61,934 bases of DNA from Flavobacteriales bacterium (GCA_947380375.1 CANCQX010000003.1:1-61934); one strand, 5' to 3'; counted from the first letter of the stretch, positions 8,451-20,324 are shown. The notes: generated from the sequence alone by a model not told the origin. A program made the numbers and translations.

Positions 8451-9299
8451 TTAATTATAGTAAAAACAATTGGACGGATTTCCTAATTTAAAAGTTAACA
8501 TCATTCCAGTAAAAACATACCAATCATTTGTTGACGAAGTACCTCTTTTACCAAATCTCGAACCGTCTAAGCTTCGATTCGAAAGGGCAGCTGCAGTTGA
8601 ACCATTCTGAGATTCCAACTTCACAGGATCAATATAGGTATCCGAATGAACGTCATCAATATAATCCGTAAAAGTCTTTCTCAATCCAAATTCTATATTT
8701 AGAGAGGCTCTTTCTCCAATAGAGATTCTTATTCCTGTACCAATTGGTATACAAAGTTGAGTCAAACTATAATTTTTATGTGATGATAAACTTGTGCCTT
8801 GACCTTCTGTACCTAAAGGTTGTAATGCTATATCTCCCCCCTCAAACTTTGTCATAGGATTCATGTGAAAAAAACCTATTTCCGTCAAAATATAAGCAGT
8901 TCCTTTATAACGATCGTGACCTATTTCAAATGGTAAATAATTAAATTCTAGGCCACCTGTTAATTCTACAATTGAAGAATTAAAATTTAAATTTCTATTT
9001 TTAATTAAACTAGATGAAGACTGAGAATCATCACCTTTTATATTTCCATAAATAAAATTTCCCCTAAAACTAAGTCGAGAATGAATATTAAACCGATACA
9101 TCAAACCACCTGCTAATTGAGTATTTTTAAATTGTTGAATTGGATTTAAATCGCCAATATAATACATCCCTCCAACTAAAAAACCAAATTCTGATCTAGA
9201 TAAACGGGTTGCTCTTTGAGCATAGAGATTTAATCCAAAAAAAACACAACAAATTAGTATACATTTATATTTCAGCATGAAATTATTCAAGTTTCTCAT
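8451..9299 (-). CDS. DUF6089-like outer-membrane beta-barrel protein
   Basis: The 282-residue protein starts with a basic stretch and a hydrophobic segment ending in LNLYAQ, a plausible signal peptide. It continues with alternating strands and aromatic girdles: EFGFLVGGMYYIGDLNP, AGGLMYRFNIHSRLSFRGNF, and a C-terminal strand near GMMLTFKLG. The MYYIGDLNP block and overall length recall the DUF6089 family of Bacteroidota envelope proteins. No enzymatic motif is visible. The start could be the internal methionine at residue 8 (MLKYK), which also leaves a complete signal peptide. Function unknown; an outer-membrane location is inferred. Confidence 0.72.
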   Translation of the reverse strand: MRNLNNFMLKYKCILICCVFFGLNLYAQRATRLSRSEFGFLVGGMYYIGDLNPIQQFKNTQLAGGLMYRFNIHSRLSFRGNFIYGNIKGDDSQSSSSLIKNRNLNFNSSIVELTGGLEFNYLPFEIGHDRYKGTAYILTEIGFFHMNPMTKFEGGDIALQPLGTEGQGTSLSSHKNYSLTQLCIPIGTGIRISIGERASLNIEFGLRKTFTDYIDDVHSDTYIDPVKLESQNGSTAAALSNRSLDGSRFGKRGTSSTNDWYVFTGMMLTFKLGNPSNCFYYN

Positions 9300-11421: not shown

Positions 11422-12510
11422 TTATTTAATTTGAATTCCTCTCGAAGAATACAGCGCATTCACTCCTACTTTACTTTTATCTAAGGTAAATGAAAATGTA
11501 CTTCCCAAACCAACAGTACTTCTCACAGATATTGTCTGATCATGAGATTCTATAATATGTTTGACAATTGCCAAGCCAAGACCTGACCCACCTTCGTTTC
11601 TATTTCTACTTTTTTCAACTCTATAAAAACGTTCAAAAAGTCTTGGTAAATACTGATCTTCTATACCGGGACCATTATCTGAAACTTCTATCGTAACTAT
11701 TCCGTCAACAACATAAAATCGAACTATTGTTTGACCGCCTTGAGTACCGTAAAATATAGAATTACCTATTAAATTAGTCAAAACTTGACCTATCTTACTT
11801 CTATCTCCTGCTACAATTATACCTCCAGTATACTCTTTTGAAAACATTAATTTAATATTTTTCTCCTTGGAAATAATCTCTAATAAATCAAAAACTTCTT
11901 GAGTTAGTTCACAAATATCAAAAGGTCTGAATTCAATTTTTAAATCATCAACTTCTAAACGGGTGATCTGGTCTAAATCTTCCAAAATACTAGCCATTCT
12001 ATCTGTTGCTTTGGAAGCTCGTTCTAAAAAAGTTCGATTAACGGTTTCATCTTCTAATGCTCCATCCAAAAGAGTTAAGACGTATCCTTGAATAGAAAAA
12101 ACAGGTGTCTTTAGTTCATGAGCTAAGTTTCCTAAAAATTCACGTCTAAATTCTTCTTGATCTTTTAATTTAGAGATTTCTTTGTTTCTATCATCACTCC
12201 ATTCTCTAGTTTCTTTTTCTATATCAGAAATAACATTATCAGTCAATCTAAAACTAATTGGATTATCCTCAGTTATTTTACCTTTTCTTATTGATCGATA
12301 AATTAATTTTAAACGTTCATTTAAAAAAACATTTATAAAGTAATAGAAAATTAAAAAAATAGATGTTGTTATAATAATTGGATATGATATCAAAACCCAA
12401 ATTGGAATTTCAACTAAAAAAAAAGAAATAACCAAAAGCATAATAAATGAAAAAACACCTATTATGAAACTTCCGCTTACTAATAAAAATAATGGTTTTT
12501 TATTTTTCAA
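11422..12510 (-). CDS. Sensor histidine kinase, PhoR-like without a periplasmic domain
   Basis: The 362-residue kinase starts with two membrane helices (about 9-32 and 38-62) with almost no loop between them. It continues with a short linker, the HisKA H-box EFLGNLAHELKTP (His131), and the ATPase motifs: N-box near LTNLIGNS, G1 DNGPGIE, F-box and G2 GGSGLGLAIVKHI. The lack of an extracytoplasmic sensor domain resembles PhoR kinases, which read phosphate state through the Pst/PhoU system. The start overlaps the stop of the upstream PhoB-type regulator by four bases, so the pair is co-translated. A phosphate role is inferred from the neighbouring TonB receptor and the 11-bp-pitch repeats. Confidence 0.88.
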   Translation of the reverse strand: MKNKKPLFLLVSGSFIIGVFSFIMLLVISFFLVEIPIWVLISYPIIITTSIFLIFYYFINVFLNERLKLIYRSIRKGKITEDNPISFRLTDNVISDIEKETREWSDDRNKEISKLKDQEEFRREFLGNLAHELKTPVFSIQGYVLTLLDGALEDETVNRTFLERASKATDRMASILEDLDQITRLEVDDLKIEFRPFDICELTQEVFDLLEIISKEKNIKLMFSKEYTGGIIVAGDRSKIGQVLTNLIGNSIFYGTQGGQTIVRFYVVDGIVTIEVSDNGPGIEDQYLPRLFERFYRVEKSRNRNEGGSGLGLAIVKHIIESHDQTISVRSTVGLGSTFSFTLDKSKVGVNALYSSRGIQIK

Positions 12511-13196
12511 ACTTCACTAAATGTATATCCAACACCTTTTATTGTACGAATATAATCATTTCCTAGTTTTTCTCGAAGTTTTCTTATATGTACATCAATA
12601 GTTCTTTCTCCAACTATGGACTCATTACCCCATACTAAAGATAAAATTTGCTCTCTTGTGTAAACAGTTCCTGGTCGACTCGCTAACAATTCAAGCAATT
12701 CAAATTCTTTTTTTGGTAAAATAATTTTCTCATCCTTTATTTCAACGATAAACTTATCTCTATTTATCAATAAAGATGAAGTTGTCATTTGAGGCGCTTC
12801 GAATGACCTATTTAATCTCCTCAATAAAGATTCAACTTTACTAACTAACAATCTAGGTCGTACTGGTTTAATAAAATAATCATCAGCTCCAGCTTCAAAA
12901 CCAGCAACTTGAGAATAATCCTCCGCTCTTGATGTTAAAAAAGCAATTATGGGTTGGATTATTTGAGTATCTTTTCTTATCATTTGACATGTCTCAATAC
13001 CGTCCATAACAGGCATCATAACATCTAAGATAATTAGTGATGGATTGTATTGTTTTGCTAATTTAACACCTTCTTCGCCATTTAAAGCTGTTAGAACCTT
13101 GTATCCTTCTCTGGATAAATTATATGATAAAAATTCTAAAATATCTTTTTCATCGTCAACTAATAAAATGGTGTGACCTTTTGATACTGCTTTCAT
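12507..13196 (-). CDS. PhoB-type response regulator (OmpR family), cognate of the adjacent kinase
   Basis: The 229-residue regulator has an N-terminal receiver with acidic pair Asp14/Asp15, phospho-acceptor Asp58, Thr/Ser near 88 and the conserved Lys near 110. A winged-helix DNA-binding domain follows, containing the recognition segment VGERTIDVHIRKLREKLG. Its receiver tail and recognition helix are nearly the same as in the second regulator at 18544-19215, so the two probably bind the same DNA. A TAACTTTG promoter element (13220-13227) and a TTAACA-type repeat (13292-13308) lie upstream, consistent with autoregulation. The gene overlaps the kinase by four bases. Confidence 0.92.
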   Translation of the reverse strand: MKAVSKGHTILLVDDEKDILEFLSYNLSREGYKVLTALNGEEGVKLAKQYNPSLIILDVMMPVMDGIETCQMIRKDTQIIQPIIAFLTSRAEDYSQVAGFEAGADDYFIKPVRPRLLVSKVESLLRRLNRSFEAPQMTTSSLLINRDKFIVEIKDEKIILPKKEFELLELLASRPGTVYTREQILSLVWGNESIVGERTIDVHIRKLREKLGNDYIRTIKGVGYTFSEV

Positions 13197-13219
13197 ATAA
13201 AATTAGCTATTATTTTAAT

Positions 13220-13227
13220 CAAAGTTA
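13220..13227 (-). promoter_or_regulatory. -7 promoter element (TAACTTTG) for the PhoB/PhoR pair
   Basis: A perfect TAnnTTTG match on the minus strand, 24 bases upstream of the regulator ATG at 13196. Just upstream, 13225-13254 holds TTAAGCC and GGCTTAA as an inverted pair, with an inner AAGCC-TTT-GGCTT hairpin. If transcription began further upstream these could form alternative leader structures. Confidence 0.55.
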
Positions 13228-13291
13228 AGCCTAATAAAAAGCCTTTGGCTTAAATGAAATTTACCTTTGCATTAACAAATCAGACGATATG

Positions 13292-13308
13292 TTAACAAAA
13301 CGTTAACT
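13292..13308. promoter_or_regulatory. Putative Pho-box-like operator (TTAACA-N5-TTAACT)
   Basis: Two hexamers TTAACA and TTAACT are separated by 5 bases, giving an 11-bp pitch, about 96-112 bases upstream of the PhoB-type regulator. The same arrangement occurs upstream of the T9SS protein and the TonB receptor. The spacing equals that of PhoP/PhoB direct-repeat boxes in other bacteria. Assignment to this regulator is inference. Confidence 0.55.
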
Positions 13309-13364
13309 TAAGATGCCCTAATTTTAGAAATAGATATTAATTTTCTGATAAATTAATACATAAA

Positions 13365-13391
13365 AAAAGCTACCTGAAACAGGTAGCTTTT
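13365..13391 (-). terminator. Intrinsic terminator of the T9SS protein gene
   Basis: A 12-bp perfect stem (AAAAGCTACCTG with its complement) encloses a 3-base loop, followed on the minus strand by a run of T. It lies 24 bases after the stop at 13415 and separates that gene from the PhoB/PhoR pair. Confidence 0.9.
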
Positions 13392-13414
13392 AAAATTTGG
13401 AAAATAATTTATTC

Positions 13415-15070
13415 CTATTTAGAAATACTCATTTTGATAGTTTCAATAATAGAATCAGTACTAATTTTAGCATAATACATTCCATTTGAAAAATCAGAAG
13501 TGTTAATTGCTAATTTAGTTTCACCTTCATTTAAATTTCCATTAAACACATTTGAAACAATTTTACCAGTTACATCATAAACAGCTACATTTACAATTGA
13601 AGATTTCAATAAAGACAAAGCTAAAGTTGCTTCATTTTGAGTTGGATTAGGATATAAATTAATATTTTCAAATAATGACAACTCATCTATTCCAGCAGAA
13701 ATTCCAGCAACATCATGATTTACATTTATAAGTGCAATTGAAGTATTCGCTACTGGTCTATAATCTGGAGATAAAAAATCATAAGGTTTAACCAAAATAT
13801 TTGCTGAAGAAACCAATGAATCATTTACTTGCTGACCAAACCATTGATGTATAGTTGTGAAAGCAGATGGAGTTTGATTTGGAACTGAACCAACTAAAGA
13901 AGTTTCACAAACTAAACCTGTTGAATTTCCACCAAAAATATTGTTTTTCACTATTAAAGCACCACTTACAGCATTTTGTTCACACAATAAACCATCTATA
14001 TGAAGACCTCTTAAATGATCCATGAAGATTGTGTTGTATATCTTTAAACCTGAATTTCTTCTAATTCTAGCTCCTCTTCTGTATCCAGAAGCAACTGTAC
14101 TTGAAACATTTCCTCTTAAAGGTCCTACCATTGTACAATTTGAAAAAATCGCACTTGTTTGAGGTGCTGCAGCCGATCCAGAAGGATCGTTATCTGATTC
14201 AAACCCTTCTGAAGTAGAAATAGATGGGTTATCAGCAATTTGTGGATCCCTTACAGCTAGTCCGAATTGAACTTTACCAGAATAACCATTATCTGTATCA
14301 AAATCATCATCCAATCCTCTGTATGCAACCAAGTATTTACAATTTACAGAACCTCCAAACCATTCAAATGAGTCATCATTTGAAAATGAAACTTGAACAT
14401 GGTGAATTGAAGTTTTACTACCCACAGCTCCAAAAGTTAATCCGTTGATTTCTTTGTTTGGCGCATAAACATAACCTGCATATTCAATTCTCACAAAACG
14501 AATAGATCCTGAATTATCTGAATCATCAGGAGTTGTTCCTCCTCCAAACTCTGTATCAGTAGTTGGAGCAATACCTTCAATATTACCAATTCCACCCGCA
14601 GCATTTGTTGAAGCTTTACCTAAAAGTATAATTCCTCCCCAATCACCAGCTAATCTGTTACCCGCAGGTTGATTTGATGTAAAAACAATTGGTTTAGCTG
14701 CTGTTCCTAGTGCATTTAATTTAGACCCTTTCGTTATGAATAAACCTGCACCTACAGAATTTTTATCTCCTAAAATCGTAGTACCTTCTTGAATTGTTAA
14801 AGTAGCACCATTTTTAACATAAATCTGACCTTGAAGTAGATACACTTGATCATTTCCCCAATATTGATCCGTTTCGATATTTGAAGAAATCGTTACATTT
14901 GCTGCAGGGTAAGGAGTAGTTTGCGGATCCCAATTAGTCCATGAATCTGTCCAAGCAGCTGTAGGAGCTGGAGCAAAAGCACCTCTATAATTTGTGTACT
15001 CTAAAAAACTTTGACCAAACCCTAAATTACTTAAAGCTAATGTCAATACTGATAAATAAATTTTTTTCAT
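13415..15070 (-). CDS. T9SS-exported protein with type A C-terminal sorting domain, probable partner of the TonB receptor
   Basis: The 551-residue protein starts with the signal peptide MKKIYLSVLTLALSNLGFGQ. It has a long central region with right-handed beta-helix character (GATLTIQEGTTILGDK, GDWGGIILLGKAST). It ends in a Por secretion-type domain (LYPNPTQNEATL ... GMYYAKIS ... IKMSISK) recognised by the type IX system. The frame opens at 15088, but the ATG at 15070 gives a proper signal peptide. The central region matches a common Bacteroidota family found beside TonB receptors like the one at 15297; its biochemical role is not established. An 11-bp-pitch repeat lies 94-110 bases upstream, with a TATATTTA element at 15134-15141. 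Surface phosphate-ester capture is inference. Confidence 0.82.
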   Translation of the reverse strand: MKKIYLSVLTLALSNLGFGQSFLEYTNYRGAFAPAPTAAWTDSWTNWDPQTTPYPAANVTISSNIETDQYWGNDQVYLLQGQIYVKNGATLTIQEGTTILGDKNSVGAGLFITKGSKLNALGTAAKPIVFTSNQPAGNRLAGDWGGIILLGKASTNAAGGIGNIEGIAPTTDTEFGGGTTPDDSDNSGSIRFVRIEYAGYVYAPNKEINGLTFGAVGSKTSIHHVQVSFSNDDSFEWFGGSVNCKYLVAYRGLDDDFDTDNGYSGKVQFGLAVRDPQIADNPSISTSEGFESDNDPSGSAAAPQTSAIFSNCTMVGPLRGNVSSTVASGYRRGARIRRNSGLKIYNTIFMDHLRGLHIDGLLCEQNAVSGALIVKNNIFGGNSTGLVCETSLVGSVPNQTPSAFTTIHQWFGQQVNDSLVSSANILVKPYDFLSPDYRPVANTSIALINVNHDVAGISAGIDELSLFENINLYPNPTQNEATLALSLLKSSIVNVAVYDVTGKIVSNVFNGNLNEGETKLAINTSDFSNGMYYAKISTDSIIETIKMSISK

Positions 15071-15163
15071 TTTTATTGTTTTATACATTTAATTGAACAC
15101 TGCAAATTTGGGTTTATTTTACCTCCTTCACGTTAAATATATCCTATCAAAATGAGAATAAAT

Positions 15164-15180
15164 AGTTAATTTAATGTTAA
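15164..15180. promoter_or_regulatory. Putative Pho-box-like operator upstream of the T9SS gene
   Basis: The plus strand reads AGTTAA-N5-TGTTAA, which is TTAACA-N5-TTAACT on the gene's strand. It lies 22 bases upstream of a TATATTTA -7 element (15134-15141), a position from which an activator could contact RNA polymerase. The hexamers and spacing match those upstream of the TonB receptor. Confidence 0.6.
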
Positions 15181-15252
15181 GTGATATAAACTTTAATTTA
15201 ACATCAATCCTTTAAATTATTAAAATTAAATGAGTTACACTCAAAACAAAAA

Positions 15253-15275
15253 AAGCTGTCAAAAATTGACAGCTT
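15253..15275 (-). terminator. Intrinsic terminator of the TonB receptor gene
   Basis: AAGCTGTCAA and its complement form a perfect 10-bp stem with a 3-base loop, followed on the minus strand by a T run. It begins 22 bases after the receptor stop, so the receptor and the T9SS gene have separate transcripts. Confidence 0.9.
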
Positions 15276-15296
15276 CAAACATTAACACTAGAGTAA

Positions 15297-18251
15297 TTAT
15301 AATTTAATAGTTATGGAAGCTGACACCACTCTTCCAAAAATAGTTGACCAAATCATATTGTCTACTTTTTCATTATAGCCATTTATGTTTCGCTTACTTC
15401 CTGTAAAAATTAAATTGGACACTTCTTTTCCTGATGAAATAGTTGTATTATCCAAGTAATTGTTTTGATAGAATATTTGTTTTTGCGCCAAAATATTTTG
15501 GAAATTTAATTTACACTCTAATTTATTATTAAAAAATCCTTTTGCAATTTGAAAATCAACAAACGTTCTACTTTTTTCCCAAATATCTGCTTGATTTATA
15601 TTTCCTAAAATTGAGATTCTATCTCCTACTTTATTTACATTAATAGAAGCTGACATATTTTTTTCTTCATTAAAATAAGTTAAACCAGTATTAAATACAT
15701 ATGGAGATTGTCCTTGAAGTGGCCTTGAACTATATGGAGTTCCAATTATTCCTGATACATCAACAATAGATCTTATGATTGCCAAGTTTGAATAGAATGT
15801 AAAATTGTTCCAAGAAGAATTTGAATCTGATTTAATTAATGATCCAATTATTGTTCTAGCTTCTAATTCAATACCATAGTTTGTTGCATTTGAAACATTT
15901 TTATAAGACATTTCATTAGATACGTCAGCACGTGAGATCTGTTCTATTGGATTATCGAATTGTTTATAGAAAAAGGTACCCGATAATAATTGACCTTTTC
16001 CAGGGTATAGCTCATATCTTAAATCAAGATTTGTAATTTTTGCTCGTTTAAGAGAATCATTTCCTGACATTACAAATTGTGTGTTAAAATCATAAAAAGC
16101 AAAAGGTGCTAATTCTCTATATTCTGGTCTATTAAGAGTTTGAGAAAATGATAATCTAAAATTTTGTTTTTTATTAAAAGAATAAATAGCATTTATTGAA
16201 GGAAGTATATCTAGTTTTTTTGTAGCAATTTTTAATTCTGTATAATCAGATTTTATAGCACTTAAATTTTGAACAAAATATTCGGCTCTAGCTCCCCAAA
16301 CTAATCGTAAATTTTTTTGAATTTTATTATCTAACATTAGGTATCCTGCAGTTGTTGTTGAATTTGCAGAATAAGCATCAGTTGGCTTAGTTCCATTAGA
16401 TAGTTTAAACCCTCCAACTCCTGGTTGAAGTAATCCCATATTTTCAGAGTTAAAAATTGAATTTTGGTCTAAATATTTAAGTGTGTCTTTAAAAATTATA
16501 GAAGACTTATTATCATAGATAGTATATCCTAATTGTCTAGCGTCAAAAGTTCTATTTCTATTTTGATACATTCCTCCAATTTTCAATTCACTTTTAACGC
16601 CTATTAATTCCTTTAAGTGATATGAAAAATCAGCTTTAAAACTTGCAATATTTTCTTTATTAGTTGAAAAAAACATTCCTCCACTATAATCTGGGCCAAC
16701 TCCATTATCTATTGATGAGGAATATAAAGTGTCGCTTCCAGTTAAATTATCAGGATTGTGAAATTTTGAACGATTGTAAATTGATCTTCTTAGGTTTGGA
16801 ATTGTTCTTTTTATATTACTATAAGAACCTACCCAGTGAATTTTTAACTTTTCTTTTTTGAATAAATGTTCACCATTTACTTGACCGGAATAGATGTTGT
16901 TACTCGTAAACCAAAGTGCATTTGATTTTATCAACGCAGGATTTGATTCTGTAGGATCTCTTTCCCCAGTTCTGTTAATTACTCTATCGTCAGAATTTAT
17001 ACTATATAAATTTTTAAATCCAATTTTATTGTTAGAGTTAAATTTCATGGTGAAATTAGCCATTGCTCCTCCCAAAATTTGAGTTGAATACACTTTGTCT
17101 AAATAATCAAAATCCAATTGAGAATTTCCGTTTTCACCAGTTCCTGAATACGAACGTCTTATTGTTTGATTGAAATTATTTGTTTTGTTGTAGGTAAGTG
17201 AAGTAATGATTCCTAATTCTTTTTTGAAAAGTGTAGTGTTTATTCCCATACTATATTGAAGATTTAAGTTGGGAGTGAAAGTTTTTGAATGCAATGACCA
17301 ATCGGTATTAAATTGTTTTGCTAATAAAGCTTGATCTGACATTAATGTTGGATAATGTCCTTTTGCGGGAATTACTGAAGATATACTTCTAGTTCCATCA
17401 TCAACTCCTAACCAATCTACTTTCCCTCCTTTATATGTAACCTGATCTTTGAATGTAGTTATTGTATTGTAACCTCCTGCTAAAGAAAAAGATTGAAAAT
17501 TTTTAGCGGGAATACTTTTTGTATTAATTTGTATAATTCCTCCTGCAAATTCAGCTGGTAAATCAGGAGTCGCTGTTTTTACAATGGTAATATTATCTAA
17601 CATATTGGCTGGAAATATATCAAATGAAAATGCTTTTCTATCTGATTCTGAGCTTGGTAATGGCCCATCATTTAAATAAGCTGCATTATAACGATCATTT
17701 AAACCTCGAATAATTGCAAATTTATTATCTTGAATACTTGCGCCAGAAACACGTTTTAATACATCACTAGTTGTTCTATCTGGAGTTTTAGAAATCGCTT
17801 GAGCGGAAATTACATCTGAGCTATTCGCACTATTTTTTTTAACATTCAAGGTCCCAATATCATCTGATTTATTAATCTTTACTTTTATTACAACCTCAGT
17901 TATTGTTGTAGAAATTGGTTCTAAAGAAATATTAATAAGTTGAACATCTGAAGAAGAAACAATAACATCTGTTAATATTTTAGTTACATGTCCTGGAGAT
18001 GATATCGTTATTGAATAAGTCCCAAATTCAATACCTCTAATGTAATAGTTTCCATCAAAATCTGAAATAGCTCTATATTCGGTACCATCAATAATAATTT
18101 TAGCACCTGGAACTATTTCACCAGTTGTTCCTTCTATAAAATCTTTAACAGTTCCTTCAACTACTTTTCCTTCTATATAACCTATTTTTGGTGATTGAGC
18201 AAAAGCATTTTGAATTAAAATACAAAACAAGAATACTATAACTTTTTTCAT
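15297..18251 (-). CDS. TonB-dependent outer-membrane receptor with N-terminal carboxypeptidase-like regulatory domain
   Basis: The 984-residue protein has a signal peptide ending near AFAQ (about 1-18). Next come a CarboxypepD_reg-type beta-sandwich (about 20-115), a plug domain with RGLNDRYNAAYLNDGPLPSS and LPAEFAGGIIQINTK (about 150-250), and a large beta-barrel ending in ASITIKL. Such receptors import large or scarce substrates using TonB energy. No SusD partner is present, so it is not a SusCD polysaccharide system. The flanking PhoB/PhoR-type genes, the T9SS partner and the upstream repeat at 18297-18313 suggest a phosphate-limitation receptor. The ligand cannot be read from sequence. 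Confidence 0.9.
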   Translation of the reverse strand: MKKVIVFLFCILIQNAFAQSPKIGYIEGKVVEGTVKDFIEGTTGEIVPGAKIIIDGTEYRAISDFDGNYYIRGIEFGTYSITISSPGHVTKILTDVIVSSSDVQLINISLEPISTTITEVVIKVKINKSDDIGTLNVKKNSANSSDVISAQAISKTPDRTTSDVLKRVSGASIQDNKFAIIRGLNDRYNAAYLNDGPLPSSESDRKAFSFDIFPANMLDNITIVKTATPDLPAEFAGGIIQINTKSIPAKNFQSFSLAGGYNTITTFKDQVTYKGGKVDWLGVDDGTRSISSVIPAKGHYPTLMSDQALLAKQFNTDWSLHSKTFTPNLNLQYSMGINTTLFKKELGIITSLTYNKTNNFNQTIRRSYSGTGENGNSQLDFDYLDKVYSTQILGGAMANFTMKFNSNNKIGFKNLYSINSDDRVINRTGERDPTESNPALIKSNALWFTSNNIYSGQVNGEHLFKKEKLKIHWVGSYSNIKRTIPNLRRSIYNRSKFHNPDNLTGSDTLYSSSIDNGVGPDYSGGMFFSTNKENIASFKADFSYHLKELIGVKSELKIGGMYQNRNRTFDARQLGYTIYDNKSSIIFKDTLKYLDQNSIFNSENMGLLQPGVGGFKLSNGTKPTDAYSANSTTTAGYLMLDNKIQKNLRLVWGARAEYFVQNLSAIKSDYTELKIATKKLDILPSINAIYSFNKKQNFRLSFSQTLNRPEYRELAPFAFYDFNTQFVMSGNDSLKRAKITNLDLRYELYPGKGQLLSGTFFYKQFDNPIEQISRADVSNEMSYKNVSNATNYGIELEARTIIGSLIKSDSNSSWNNFTFYSNLAIIRSIVDVSGIIGTPYSSRPLQGQSPYVFNTGLTYFNEEKNMSASINVNKVGDRISILGNINQADIWEKSRTFVDFQIAKGFFNNKLECKLNFQNILAQKQIFYQNNYLDNTTISSGKEVSNLIFTGSKRNINGYNEKVDNMIWSTIFGRVVSASITIKL

Positions 18252-18296
18252 TTTATCTAAATTTTAGACAAAGGACGCTATATGTCATTAATGAAA

Positions 18297-18313
18297 AGTT
18301 AAGCCAATGTTAA
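18297..18313. promoter_or_regulatory. Putative Pho-box-like operator of the TonB receptor
   Basis: The plus strand has AGTTAA-N5-TGTTAA, with a weaker third repeat CGATAA one 11-bp step further (18319-18324). It is 46-62 bases upstream of the receptor ATG and 20 bases from a GTCCTTTG sequence (18269-18276) that may be the -7 element. The geometry matches that of the T9SS gene promoter. Confidence 0.6.
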
Positions 18314-18471
18314 TTTAACGATAAGTTATTTAAACAAATCTTAAAGTTTTAAAATTTTACAACTTAAAAAAAAAGATATTTAAAAAAATTAAATACCTAA
18401 TAAAAAGTATTTTAACAAAAAAATGAAACGAATTTAGATAAAAATAATTAACGTAAAAAATGTTAAGCTGA

Positions 18472-18488
18472 TTAACATTAACTTAACA
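18472..18488. promoter_or_regulatory. Second TTAACA-N5-TTAACA direct repeat, distal to the TonB receptor
   Basis: Two perfect TTAACA hexamers at an 11-bp pitch are preceded by an inverted TGTTAA at 18461-18466. The cluster lies between the regulator stop (18544) and the receptor start, about 220-237 bases upstream of the receptor. It may be a distal or auxiliary site. The rest of 18252-18543 is A/T-rich without a gene. Confidence 0.5.
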
Positions 18489-18543
18489 TTAGGCAGGAAA
18501 ATAAATAAACAAAACCTTAAAAAAGAGAAATAATAACTAGAAG

Positions 18544-19215
18544 TTATTCAGGATTAGAAAATTTATAACCTACACCTTTTACAGTTGTAATATAATTCTC
18601 TCCTAATTTTTCTCTGAGTTTTCGTATATGTACGTCTATTGTTCTATCACCAACAACAATATCAGAACCCCAGACACTTTCTAAAATAACATCTCTTTCA
18701 AAAACTGAATGTGGTTTAGATGCTAAAAGAGCCAATAATTCAAACTCTTTTCTAGGTAAATGAAGAATCTCTCCATTTCTTTCTACTATGTATTTTTCTC
18801 TATTTATGATTAAACCTGTGGAGGAAATATTTTCTTGTTGAACCTTTCCTTTTCTTCTCAGTAAAGCATTTATTCGACTCACTAATACTTTAGGCTTTAC
18901 GGGTTTAGCAACATAATCATCAGCTCCTGAATCTAAACCCGCAATTTGACTATAATCCTCATTTCTTGCGGTCAATAAACAAATAATAATGTTTTCATAA
19001 TTGGGAGTGCTTCTAATTAAATCACACACTTCAATTCCATCCATTCCAGGCATCATAACATCCAATATAACTAAATCTGGAATATTAGATTTGATTTTTG
19101 CTAATCCCTGCTCTCCATTTGAAGCGACATCAACATAAAAACCTTCTTTTTCTAAATTATATTTAAGGATATCTCTAATATCCTCCTCGTCATCAATTAT
19201 TAATATTGAAACCAT
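18544..19215 (-). CDS. Second PhoB-type response regulator (OmpR family), orphan paralogue
   Basis: The 223-residue regulator has a receiver with acidic residues Asp8/Asp9, phospho-acceptor Asp52 and Lys104. Its winged-helix domain has the segment VGDRTIDVHIRKLREKLG. Receiver tail and recognition helix nearly match the regulator at 12507-13196, which indicates a duplication. No kinase gene adjoins it, so it either shares the kinase at 11422 or has a distant partner. It reads toward the TonB receptor. No TTAACA-type repeat is visible upstream of its own start. Confidence 0.92.
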   Translation of the reverse strand: MVSILIIDDEEDIRDILKYNLEKEGFYVDVASNGEQGLAKIKSNIPDLVILDVMMPGMDGIEVCDLIRSTPNYENIIICLLTARNEDYSQIAGLDSGADDYVAKPVKPKVLVSRINALLRRKGKVQQENISSTGLIINREKYIVERNGEILHLPRKEFELLALLASKPHSVFERDVILESVWGSDIVVGDRTIDVHIRKLREKLGENYITTVKGVGYKFSNPE

Positions 19216-19634: not shown

Positions 19635-20324
19635 ATGAAAATAAAAATACTTTTAGCTGAAGATGATTTAAACCTAGGCTATATGATTTCTGACCAACTA
19701 AAATCTGATGGATATGATGTAACTTTATGCATTGATGGTGCCGAAGCTTATAAACGCTTTAATGATGAAAAATTTCATATTTGTATTTTAGATGTAATGA
19801 TGCCTAAAAAAGATGGTTTTTCTTTAGCAAGTGATATTCGAAAAATAGATTCTGAAATTCCAATTTTATTTCTATCTGCAAAGTCAATGATTGAAGATAA
19901 AATATTAGGATTTAAATCTGGAGGAGATGACTATCTTACAAAACCATTTAGTATTGAAGAGCTTCAAATCAGATTAACAGCCCTTCTTAAACGAGTTAAT
20001 ATTCAAACAAAAAATCCAGAGGAAAAAATACTTAAAATTGGTAGTTATTTATTTGACCCTGAAAATTTCACTTTAAAACATTTAGAATTTCAAAAAACAT
20101 TAACAAAAAAAGAAGCTCAAATTCTCAAAATTCTATATAAATTCAAAAATCAAGTAGTTGAACGAGATGTAGTATTGAATGCGGTATGGGGTCAGGATGA
20201 TTATTTTGTTGGTCGAAGTTTGGATGTTTTTATAACAAAACTTCGAAAATATTTCAAAGAAGACGAAGGAATTCAAATATCAAATATTCATGGGATTGGT
20301 TTTAAACTTTCTATTTTAGACTAA
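19635..20324 (+). CDS. rprY: RprY-like response regulator (OmpR family), no adjacent kinase
   Basis: The 229-residue regulator has a receiver with Asp10/Asp11, phospho-acceptor Asp53 and Lys103. Its winged-helix domain ends in GRSLDVFITKLRKYFKED and NIHGIGFKL. The wording KILLAEDDLNLGY and SAKSMIEDKILGFKSGGDDYLTKPFS is close to the RprY regulators of Bacteroidota as I remember them. It is clearly distinct from the two PhoB-type regulators at 12507 and 18544. No RprX-type kinase is present here. It is followed 10 bases later by tsaB and may be co-transcribed with it. The gene symbol is tentative. Confidence 0.85.
   Translation: MKIKILLAEDDLNLGYMISDQLKSDGYDVTLCIDGAEAYKRFNDEKFHICILDVMMPKKDGFSLASDIRKIDSEIPILFLSAKSMIEDKILGFKSGGDDYLTKPFSIEELQIRLTALLKRVNIQTKNPEEKILKIGSYLFDPENFTLKHLEFQKTLTKKEAQILKILYKFKNQVVERDVVLNAVWGQDDYFVGRSLDVFITKLRKYFKEDEGIQISNIHGIGFKLSILD

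Follow-up and report, generated by a model that had tools for sequence, protein, structure and literature searches.

A predicted phosphate-controlled outer-membrane acquisition locus in a Flavobacteriales bacterium, with two PhoB-type regulators and one PhoR-type kinase

A 62-kb stretch of DNA (61,934 nucleotides, contig CANCQX010000003.1 of assembly GCA_947380375.1; hereafter the window) from the 3.05-Mb genome of a Flavobacteriales bacterium carries a 7.8-kb block on its minus strand that is best explained as a phosphate-controlled outer-membrane acquisition locus, a variant of the PUSIV type, with a probability of about 0.82. Along the direction of transcription, the block encodes a PhoB-type response regulator (RR2), a TonB-dependent receptor, a protein exported by the type IX secretion system (T9SS), another PhoB-type response regulator (RR1), and a PhoR-like sensor histidine kinase (HK); their coordinates are collected in Table 1. 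The core of this system is already known, and the locus is not new in kind. The new part, for which no description was found, is a family-wide duplication of PhoB that gives two paralogues per genome for a single PhoR.

The open reading frames and Pfam matches place in the block all that the initial annotation had listed, namely the two PhoB-type regulators, a PhoR-like kinase without a periplasmic domain, a receptor without SusD, and a T9SS protein. By the same means no susD, pst, or phosphatase gene was found in the block, as had also been claimed for the latter two. HK contains HisKA and HATPase domains only, with no PAS, HAMP, or periplasmic domain among its Pfam matches, and its frame overlaps the 3' end of RR1 by 4 bases. 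The initial annotation had remarked on the missing periplasmic domain; the observation holds, but PhoR proteins ordinarily have no large domain in the periplasm. Terminator-like repeats lie in the gaps between the receptor and the T9SS gene and between the latter and RR1, so the block appears to comprise three separate units: the receptor, the T9SS protein, and RR1-HK.

Table 1. Genes, Pho-box-like repeats, and terminator-like elements of the block (window positions)
Feature	Coordinates	Strand	Details
HK, PhoR-like sensor histidine kinase	11422-12510	-	TTG start; two hydrophobic stretches at the N terminus
RR1, PhoB-type response regulator	12507-13196	-	Response_reg + Trans_reg_C; the copy that the kinase usually accompanies
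Pho-box-like repeat upstream of RR1-HK, TTAACGTTTTGTTAAC	13291-13307	-	17-mer score 19.1
Intrinsic-terminator-like perfect 12-bp inverted repeat	13365-13391	unassigned	T9SS gene/RR1 gap; flanked by A/T runs
T9SS type A exported protein	13415-15088	-	Pfam match to Por_Secre_tail only; C-terminal sorting domain
Pho-box-like repeat upstream of the T9SS gene, TTAACATTAAATTAAC	15165-15180	-	exact-pattern match
Terminator-like inverted repeat AAGCTGTCAA..TTGACAGCTT	15249-15275 (ends approximate)	unassigned	receptor/T9SS gene gap; read from the sequence
TonB-dependent receptor without SusD	15297-18251	-	CarboxypepD_reg, Plug, OMP_b-brl_3
Best Pho-box-like site of the window, ahead of the receptor	18287-18325	-	at least three half-sites at 11-bp pitch; 28-mer scores 20.5, 19.9
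Distal second repeat cluster in the receptor gap, TTAACATTAACTTAAC	18472-18487	+	opposite orientation; exact-pattern match
RR2, second PhoB-type response regulator	18544-19215	-	Response_reg + Trans_reg_C; no kinase adjoining

The regulatory reading starts from a repeat in the intergenic gaps. The exact pattern TTAAC-N6-TTAAC, with a pitch of 11 bp, has five strand-matches in the window, all inside the block, where 0.53 were expected, and none of 100 shuffles reached five. The whole genome holds 15 exact matches, 5 of which are within the block; when palindromic overlap is counted once, 4 of 14 distinct genome sites fall in these 7.8 kb (binomial p ~4e-8). Other exact matches in the genome (L092-L094, L096-L101) fall within unrelated genes or close to them and were taken as chance occurrences. 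The repeats occupy the gaps upstream of RR1, the T9SS gene, and the receptor, which agrees with the earlier claim that three of the four gaps share them, and neither pattern nor matrix scoring detected a TTAAC-N6-TTAAC or other Pho-box-like site in the gap upstream of RR2. The top two matrix sites of the 62 kb both precede the receptor (20.5 and 19.9, the next being 13.9), and the two-half-site form is strong at the RR1 gap (19.1). This search for operators covered the exact pattern genome-wide and the matrix on targeted stretches.

The same repeat was recovered from relatives by an unsupervised search. Upstream of receptor homologues from 63 loci, the motif found was gTTAACATttAgtTAACATtaa.tTAAt, that is, three half-sites at an 11-bp pitch, with a log-likelihood of 625 compared to 153-170 in shuffled sets, and counts of the spacing between TTAAY pairs peaked at 11 and 22. 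Related repeats were found de novo before the T9SS homologues (302 versus 135-154 shuffled) and before the regulators (243 versus 112-130). The exact pattern occurs on the coding strand in only 4 of the 63 receptor upstream regions and is too strict across genera, so the de novo position matrix was used instead. Trained on the 63-locus set and then applied to order-level genomes, where a single locus (L170) duplicates a contig of the training set, the matrix scored at least 14 before 11 of 22 receptors, 9 of 18 T9SS-type genes, and 10 of 16 RR1-type genes, compared to 12 of 480 random 300-bp windows. Judged by these comparisons, the repeat is a conserved, operator-like motif.

A link to phosphate is provided by the position of another such site. 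A box of 20.8 bits sits between a divergent hypothetical gene and PhoU_div-Pit; the genome has no other Pit phosphate transporter. Thus, tandem direct half-sites at a pitch of about 11 bp precede putative Pho genes that include a phosphate transporter, as would be expected of a Pho box. Repeats of the same kind recur in the Pit gap of several relatives, with varying orientation and strength; in this genome the box faces away from Pit, and hence it probably, though not certainly, controls Pit directly. The gene for a PafA-like phosphatase has no upstream site that scores like a box; the PafA homologue of Flavobacterium is constitutive (PMC8115612).

How phosphate might be sensed is suggested by what accompanies Pit. 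A search with PstS revealed no pst operon in the genome, and a PBP_like_2 protein (C154; L119:3090-4016, G000) was rejected as a PstS candidate, being an orphan lipoprotein between TPR and rhomboid-like genes with no pstCAB. The PhoU domain PF01895 is likewise absent from the genome, which has only PhoU_div proteins, one of them beside Pit; this PhoU_div/PitR protein is the nearest equivalent of PhoU. In Staphylococcus aureus, the PitA-linked PhoU relative PitR represses PhoPR (PMC13170248), and on that analogy an input from PitR-Pit to the kinase is a reasonable hypothesis.

The box itself has counterparts in other bacteria. The PhoP box of Bacillus subtilis consists of TTAACA direct repeats. 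Closer by lineage, PhoP of Riemerella anatipestifer binds a TTTAACA core, also upstream of its own operon, as determined by DNA affinity purification sequencing (PMC9603813), and the repeat of the locus matches this core. The two cases differ in that three half-sites at an 11-bp pitch are conserved here before receptor, T9SS, and RR1 genes, as a predicted operator. Apart from the Riemerella work, no Pho box of Bacteroidota was found in the literature searched, outside of which lay subscription papers and preprints.

The locus resembles a cluster with a demonstrated phosphate response. PUSIV of F. johnsoniae, a phoBR-TBDT-FII cluster (Fjoh_0541-0549; TBDT, TonB-dependent transporter), is induced on phosphate depletion, with log2 fold changes of 8.0 for Fjoh_0545 (TBDT) and 9.9 for Fjoh_0546 (FII), which stand beside phoBR, and of 3.1 for PhoB (PMC8115612). 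As in the window, phoB and phoR adjoin genes for a TBDT and an FII-type protein, PhoR has no extra Pfam domains, the TBDT lacks SusD and combines PF13715, PF07715, and PF14905, and the surface protein is a beta-helix (IPR011050). In contrast, two PhoB-type regulators flank the receptor/exported-protein pair in the window, no OprP gene is adjacent, and the exported protein has a T9SS sorting domain at its C terminus, whereas Fjoh_0546 is a lipoprotein. Because both anchors occur among the homologues, the T9SS form is filed as a PUSIV variant. A Flavobacterium metagenome-assembled genome (L024) has the order GT28, PhoR, PhoB, TBDT, and FII-like protein, which repeats the published one and ties PUSIV to the family of the window.

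The neighborhood is conserved. The receptor adjoins a T9SS homologue in 71 of 78 loci, and 5 of the 7 receptor-less loci start with the T9SS gene at the edge of a contig. A PhoB-grade regulator lies close by in 26 of the 78. In 22 of 28 related genomes a PhoB-grade regulator shares a stretch with a homologous receptor and/or exported protein, so the lack of conservation near phoB-type genes that would have refuted the initial annotation is not observed. Two public metagenomic records titled Chryseobacterium gleum (L009) and Actinomyces viscosus (L012) carry this Bacteroidota locus; the L009 contig agrees in length and in its matches with G001:C68, from the genus of the window, so its title is probably wrong.

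A more distant relative is the ElpS-CC0171 pair of Caulobacter crescentus, in which ElpS is made under phosphate starvation and is linked to, and released by, a type II secretion system (T2SS; PMC2996285). Alphaproteobacterial plasmids of Sphingomonas and Indioceanicola, through which the comparison was made, encode a homologue of the exported protein (33-37% identity over ~300 residues) that has a homologous receptor (25-28%) and genes for type II secretion as neighbors. A homologous surface protein therefore stands beside a homologous TonB receptor in both cases, but the alphaproteobacterial pair is linked to T2SS genes, is anchored otherwise, and has no adjacent phoBR. The block contains no gsp genes by open reading frame and Pfam analysis, and has a T9SS domain instead; thus, its pair is homologous but falls outside the T2SS-linked type.

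The initial annotation had placed the block under twin-regulator control. The two PhoB-type genes stand, but they are better described as the outcome of an old family-wide duplication, with a single kinase. RR1 and RR2 are 55% identical and are the sole PhoB-grade regulators in the genome, the next best being 38%. In the tree they fall into separate clades (RR1, support 98/100, 16 rows; RR2, 98/89, 15 rows) that repeat a similar order of genomes; the bootstrap is not fully settled. All rows of known placement belong to one family (f1), the RR1-clade row L019 being a metagenome-assembled genome without placement; four genomes of f1 (G014, G015, G019, and G021) have second copies outside both clades or on long branches. 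At least two PhoB-type copies occur in 23 of 25 family genomes, and a single copy is usual in the other families of the order. The kinase is PhoR-type and single per genome (E<=1e-45 in that of the window), a ratio of one kinase to two regulators. G011 is the exception: it has three regulators and a second kinase, and may be a mixture. In G005, one kinase gene is split into two pieces that lie at contig ends. The kinase usually adjoins RR1; it adjoins RR2 in G016 and lies elsewhere in G015, G019, and G021. In the nearly complete G006, of the same genus as the window, RR2 is present and both RR1 and the kinase appear to be missing, which may be an assembly loss. No description of a PhoB duplication in Crocinitomicaceae was found in the same literature search.

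The promoters of the two paralogues differ. A two-half-site box precedes 12 of 15 RR1-clade genes compared to 3 of 14 RR2-clade genes (Fisher p 0.003 between clades) and 26 of 600 random windows. RR2 thus usually lacks the operator in its own promoter while its recognition helix, [ED]RTIDVHIRKLREKLG, is common to both regulators; residue differences between the clades are few and mild, and give no pointer to different kinases. Accordingly, two fates may be considered for RR2. The first, to which we give about even odds, is that of a basal arm acting on the same boxes under the same kinase. The second, rather unlikely, is that RR2 is no longer a Pho regulator, having kept its neighborhood and lost its kinase partner, with other targets or as a redundant relic. 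The boxless promoter, the absence of an adjoining kinase, and the unlinking of RR2 from the receptor in several relatives are consistent with such a loss; however, RR2 is kept in most of the family with its receiver and DNA-recognition residues intact, each genome has one PhoR-type kinase, and RR2 adjoins the family's kinase in G016 and PhoU_div-Pit in G020. In the latter, from another genus of the family, an RR2-type PhoB gene lies directly upstream of PhoU_div and Pit (L177:3681-7609).

The exported protein is predicted by AlphaFold to be a right-handed beta-helix (mean pLDDT 84.9) of the pectin-lyase-like type (IPR011050). A search of the PDB with its sequence gave only matches to the T9SS tail. 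As the global superpositions of the beta-helix from Foldseek were poor, structures were compared by VIA-align, and the nearest were tailspikes, AlgE6, polygalacturonase, and pectate lyase (Z 19-23 over residues ~60-430). These neighbors raise the improbable alternative that the protein is a carbohydrate-active enzyme (CAZyme), such as a polysaccharide lyase or a GH28-type enzyme, and that the block is a small glycan-utilization locus. The fold does not show function, though: it is very common and the neighbors share 9-12% identity, the block has no SusD and no CAZyme Pfam match, its promoters are of the Pho type, and one of the related alphaproteobacterial surface proteins, ElpS of Caulobacter, belongs to the phosphate-starvation response (PMC2996285). 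The two readings would be compatible if the substrate were a glycan that carries phosphate.

Invariant acidic loops in the predicted structure (D238, D239, E242; D260-262, D264, D266; E297, D299), with the motifs NDD.FEWFGG, LDDDFDTDNG, and GFESDND in nearby helix strands, suggest a cation-assisted binding or catalytic site. Homologues carry either a T9SS domain at the end or a lipoprotein start; the window protein has the former, and no lipobox was seen in it. In a comparison of the window protein with those of L070, L074-L079, and L082-L086, a YRGAF...W module stands at the N terminus of window-like proteins but at the C terminus of the lipoproteins and some T9SS forms, as if the protein were circularly permuted. 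A second homologue (L121:3671-5705, G000:C42; ~38% identity) has a dockerin-like C terminus, a fairly good Pho-box-like site in its upstream gap (16.7), and neither receptor nor regulator adjoining.

Several points weigh against the phosphate reading. The genome is a draft in 202 contigs, and motif discovery and scoring were done by custom scripts. The 28-mer model is weak at the T9SS gap (13.9) and the RR1 gap (13.5), at positions that differ from the exact repeats. Orthology with Fjoh_0545/0546 rests on gene order, Pfam content, and the description in the paper, and the glycosyltransferase and CARDB lipoprotein genes of PUSIV are not adjacent here. The likeness to Riemerella PhoP, a possible orthologue of RR1 or RR2, is one of TTAACA half-sites and of autoregulation of the two-component operon, and the regulon reported for PhoP is broad, its motif being ArcA-like (PMC9603813). 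Finally, the proteins score below the NCBIfam equivalog cut-offs for PhoB (TIGR02154, 296.2, and NF053854, 270), namely 198.9 and 198.4 for RR1 and 219.8 and 206.7 for RR2, and for PhoR, where HK reaches 225.6 of 334.2 (TIGR02966), 242.6 of 400 (NF046044), and 165.8 of 500 (NF053855); for this reason they are named PhoB-type and PhoR-type. These scores, the lack of a phosphatase or pst gene in the block, and the report of Riemerella PhoPR as a broad global regulator (PMC9603813) would also fit a PhoB-like pair responding to some different cue from nutrients or the envelope (zinc, iron, envelope stress), with a receptor for a non-phosphorus ligand, a reading that we consider improbable, since the same box precedes Pit and no other regulator in the genome is PhoB-grade.

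Phosphate control is therefore preferred; the initial annotation had arrived at it from family types and motif spacing, and it now draws support from the conserved motif, the Pit box, the Riemerella core (PMC9603813), the induction of the F. johnsoniae cluster (PMC8115612), and synteny. The mechanism proposed is as follows. At low phosphate, the single PhoR-type kinase would phosphorylate the PhoB-type regulators, which would bind the tandem TTAACA half-sites before the receptor, T9SS, and RR1-HK units, the box before RR1-HK allowing positive autoregulation. On the cell surface, the beta-helix of the T9SS protein would bind or process a phosphate-bearing, probably polyanionic, substrate to be imported by the TonB receptor. 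A phosphate-bearing polymer is our best guess for this substrate, held at somewhat less than even odds. More tentative still is the proposal that, across the family, the Pho response depends on a single PhoR and on two PhoB-type proteins of ancient duplication that share their operators, only one of the two being autoregulated, with PitR-PitA replacing Pst-PhoU as input; from the sequences compared, we infer a kinase shared by two regulators in a two-speed design.

Two neighbors of the block may be mentioned. PorG, a component of the T9SS that reaches its NCBIfam cut-off, is encoded at 8451-9299, a few genes from the exported protein. At 19635-20324, divergent to RR2, is a third OmpR-family regulator, RprY-like (264.6 bits compared to a cut-off of 370), and a similar neighbor beside RR2 recurs in the genus (G001, G002, G004, and G010).

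The analysis gives an explicit and testable Pho operator for the Flavobacteriales, whose phosphate regulation has been little studied; the high-affinity Pst transporter is reportedly missing from plant-associated members of this group (PMC8115612). Furthermore, it extends an outer-membrane module for phosphate depletion across the order and links it to the alphaproteobacterial elpS-TonB-dependent receptor pair. It also exposes an arrangement of one kinase with two PhoB-type regulators that is common to most of the family and can be tested genetically; if true, the two-speed design would be new for a Pho system, as far as the literature searched shows.

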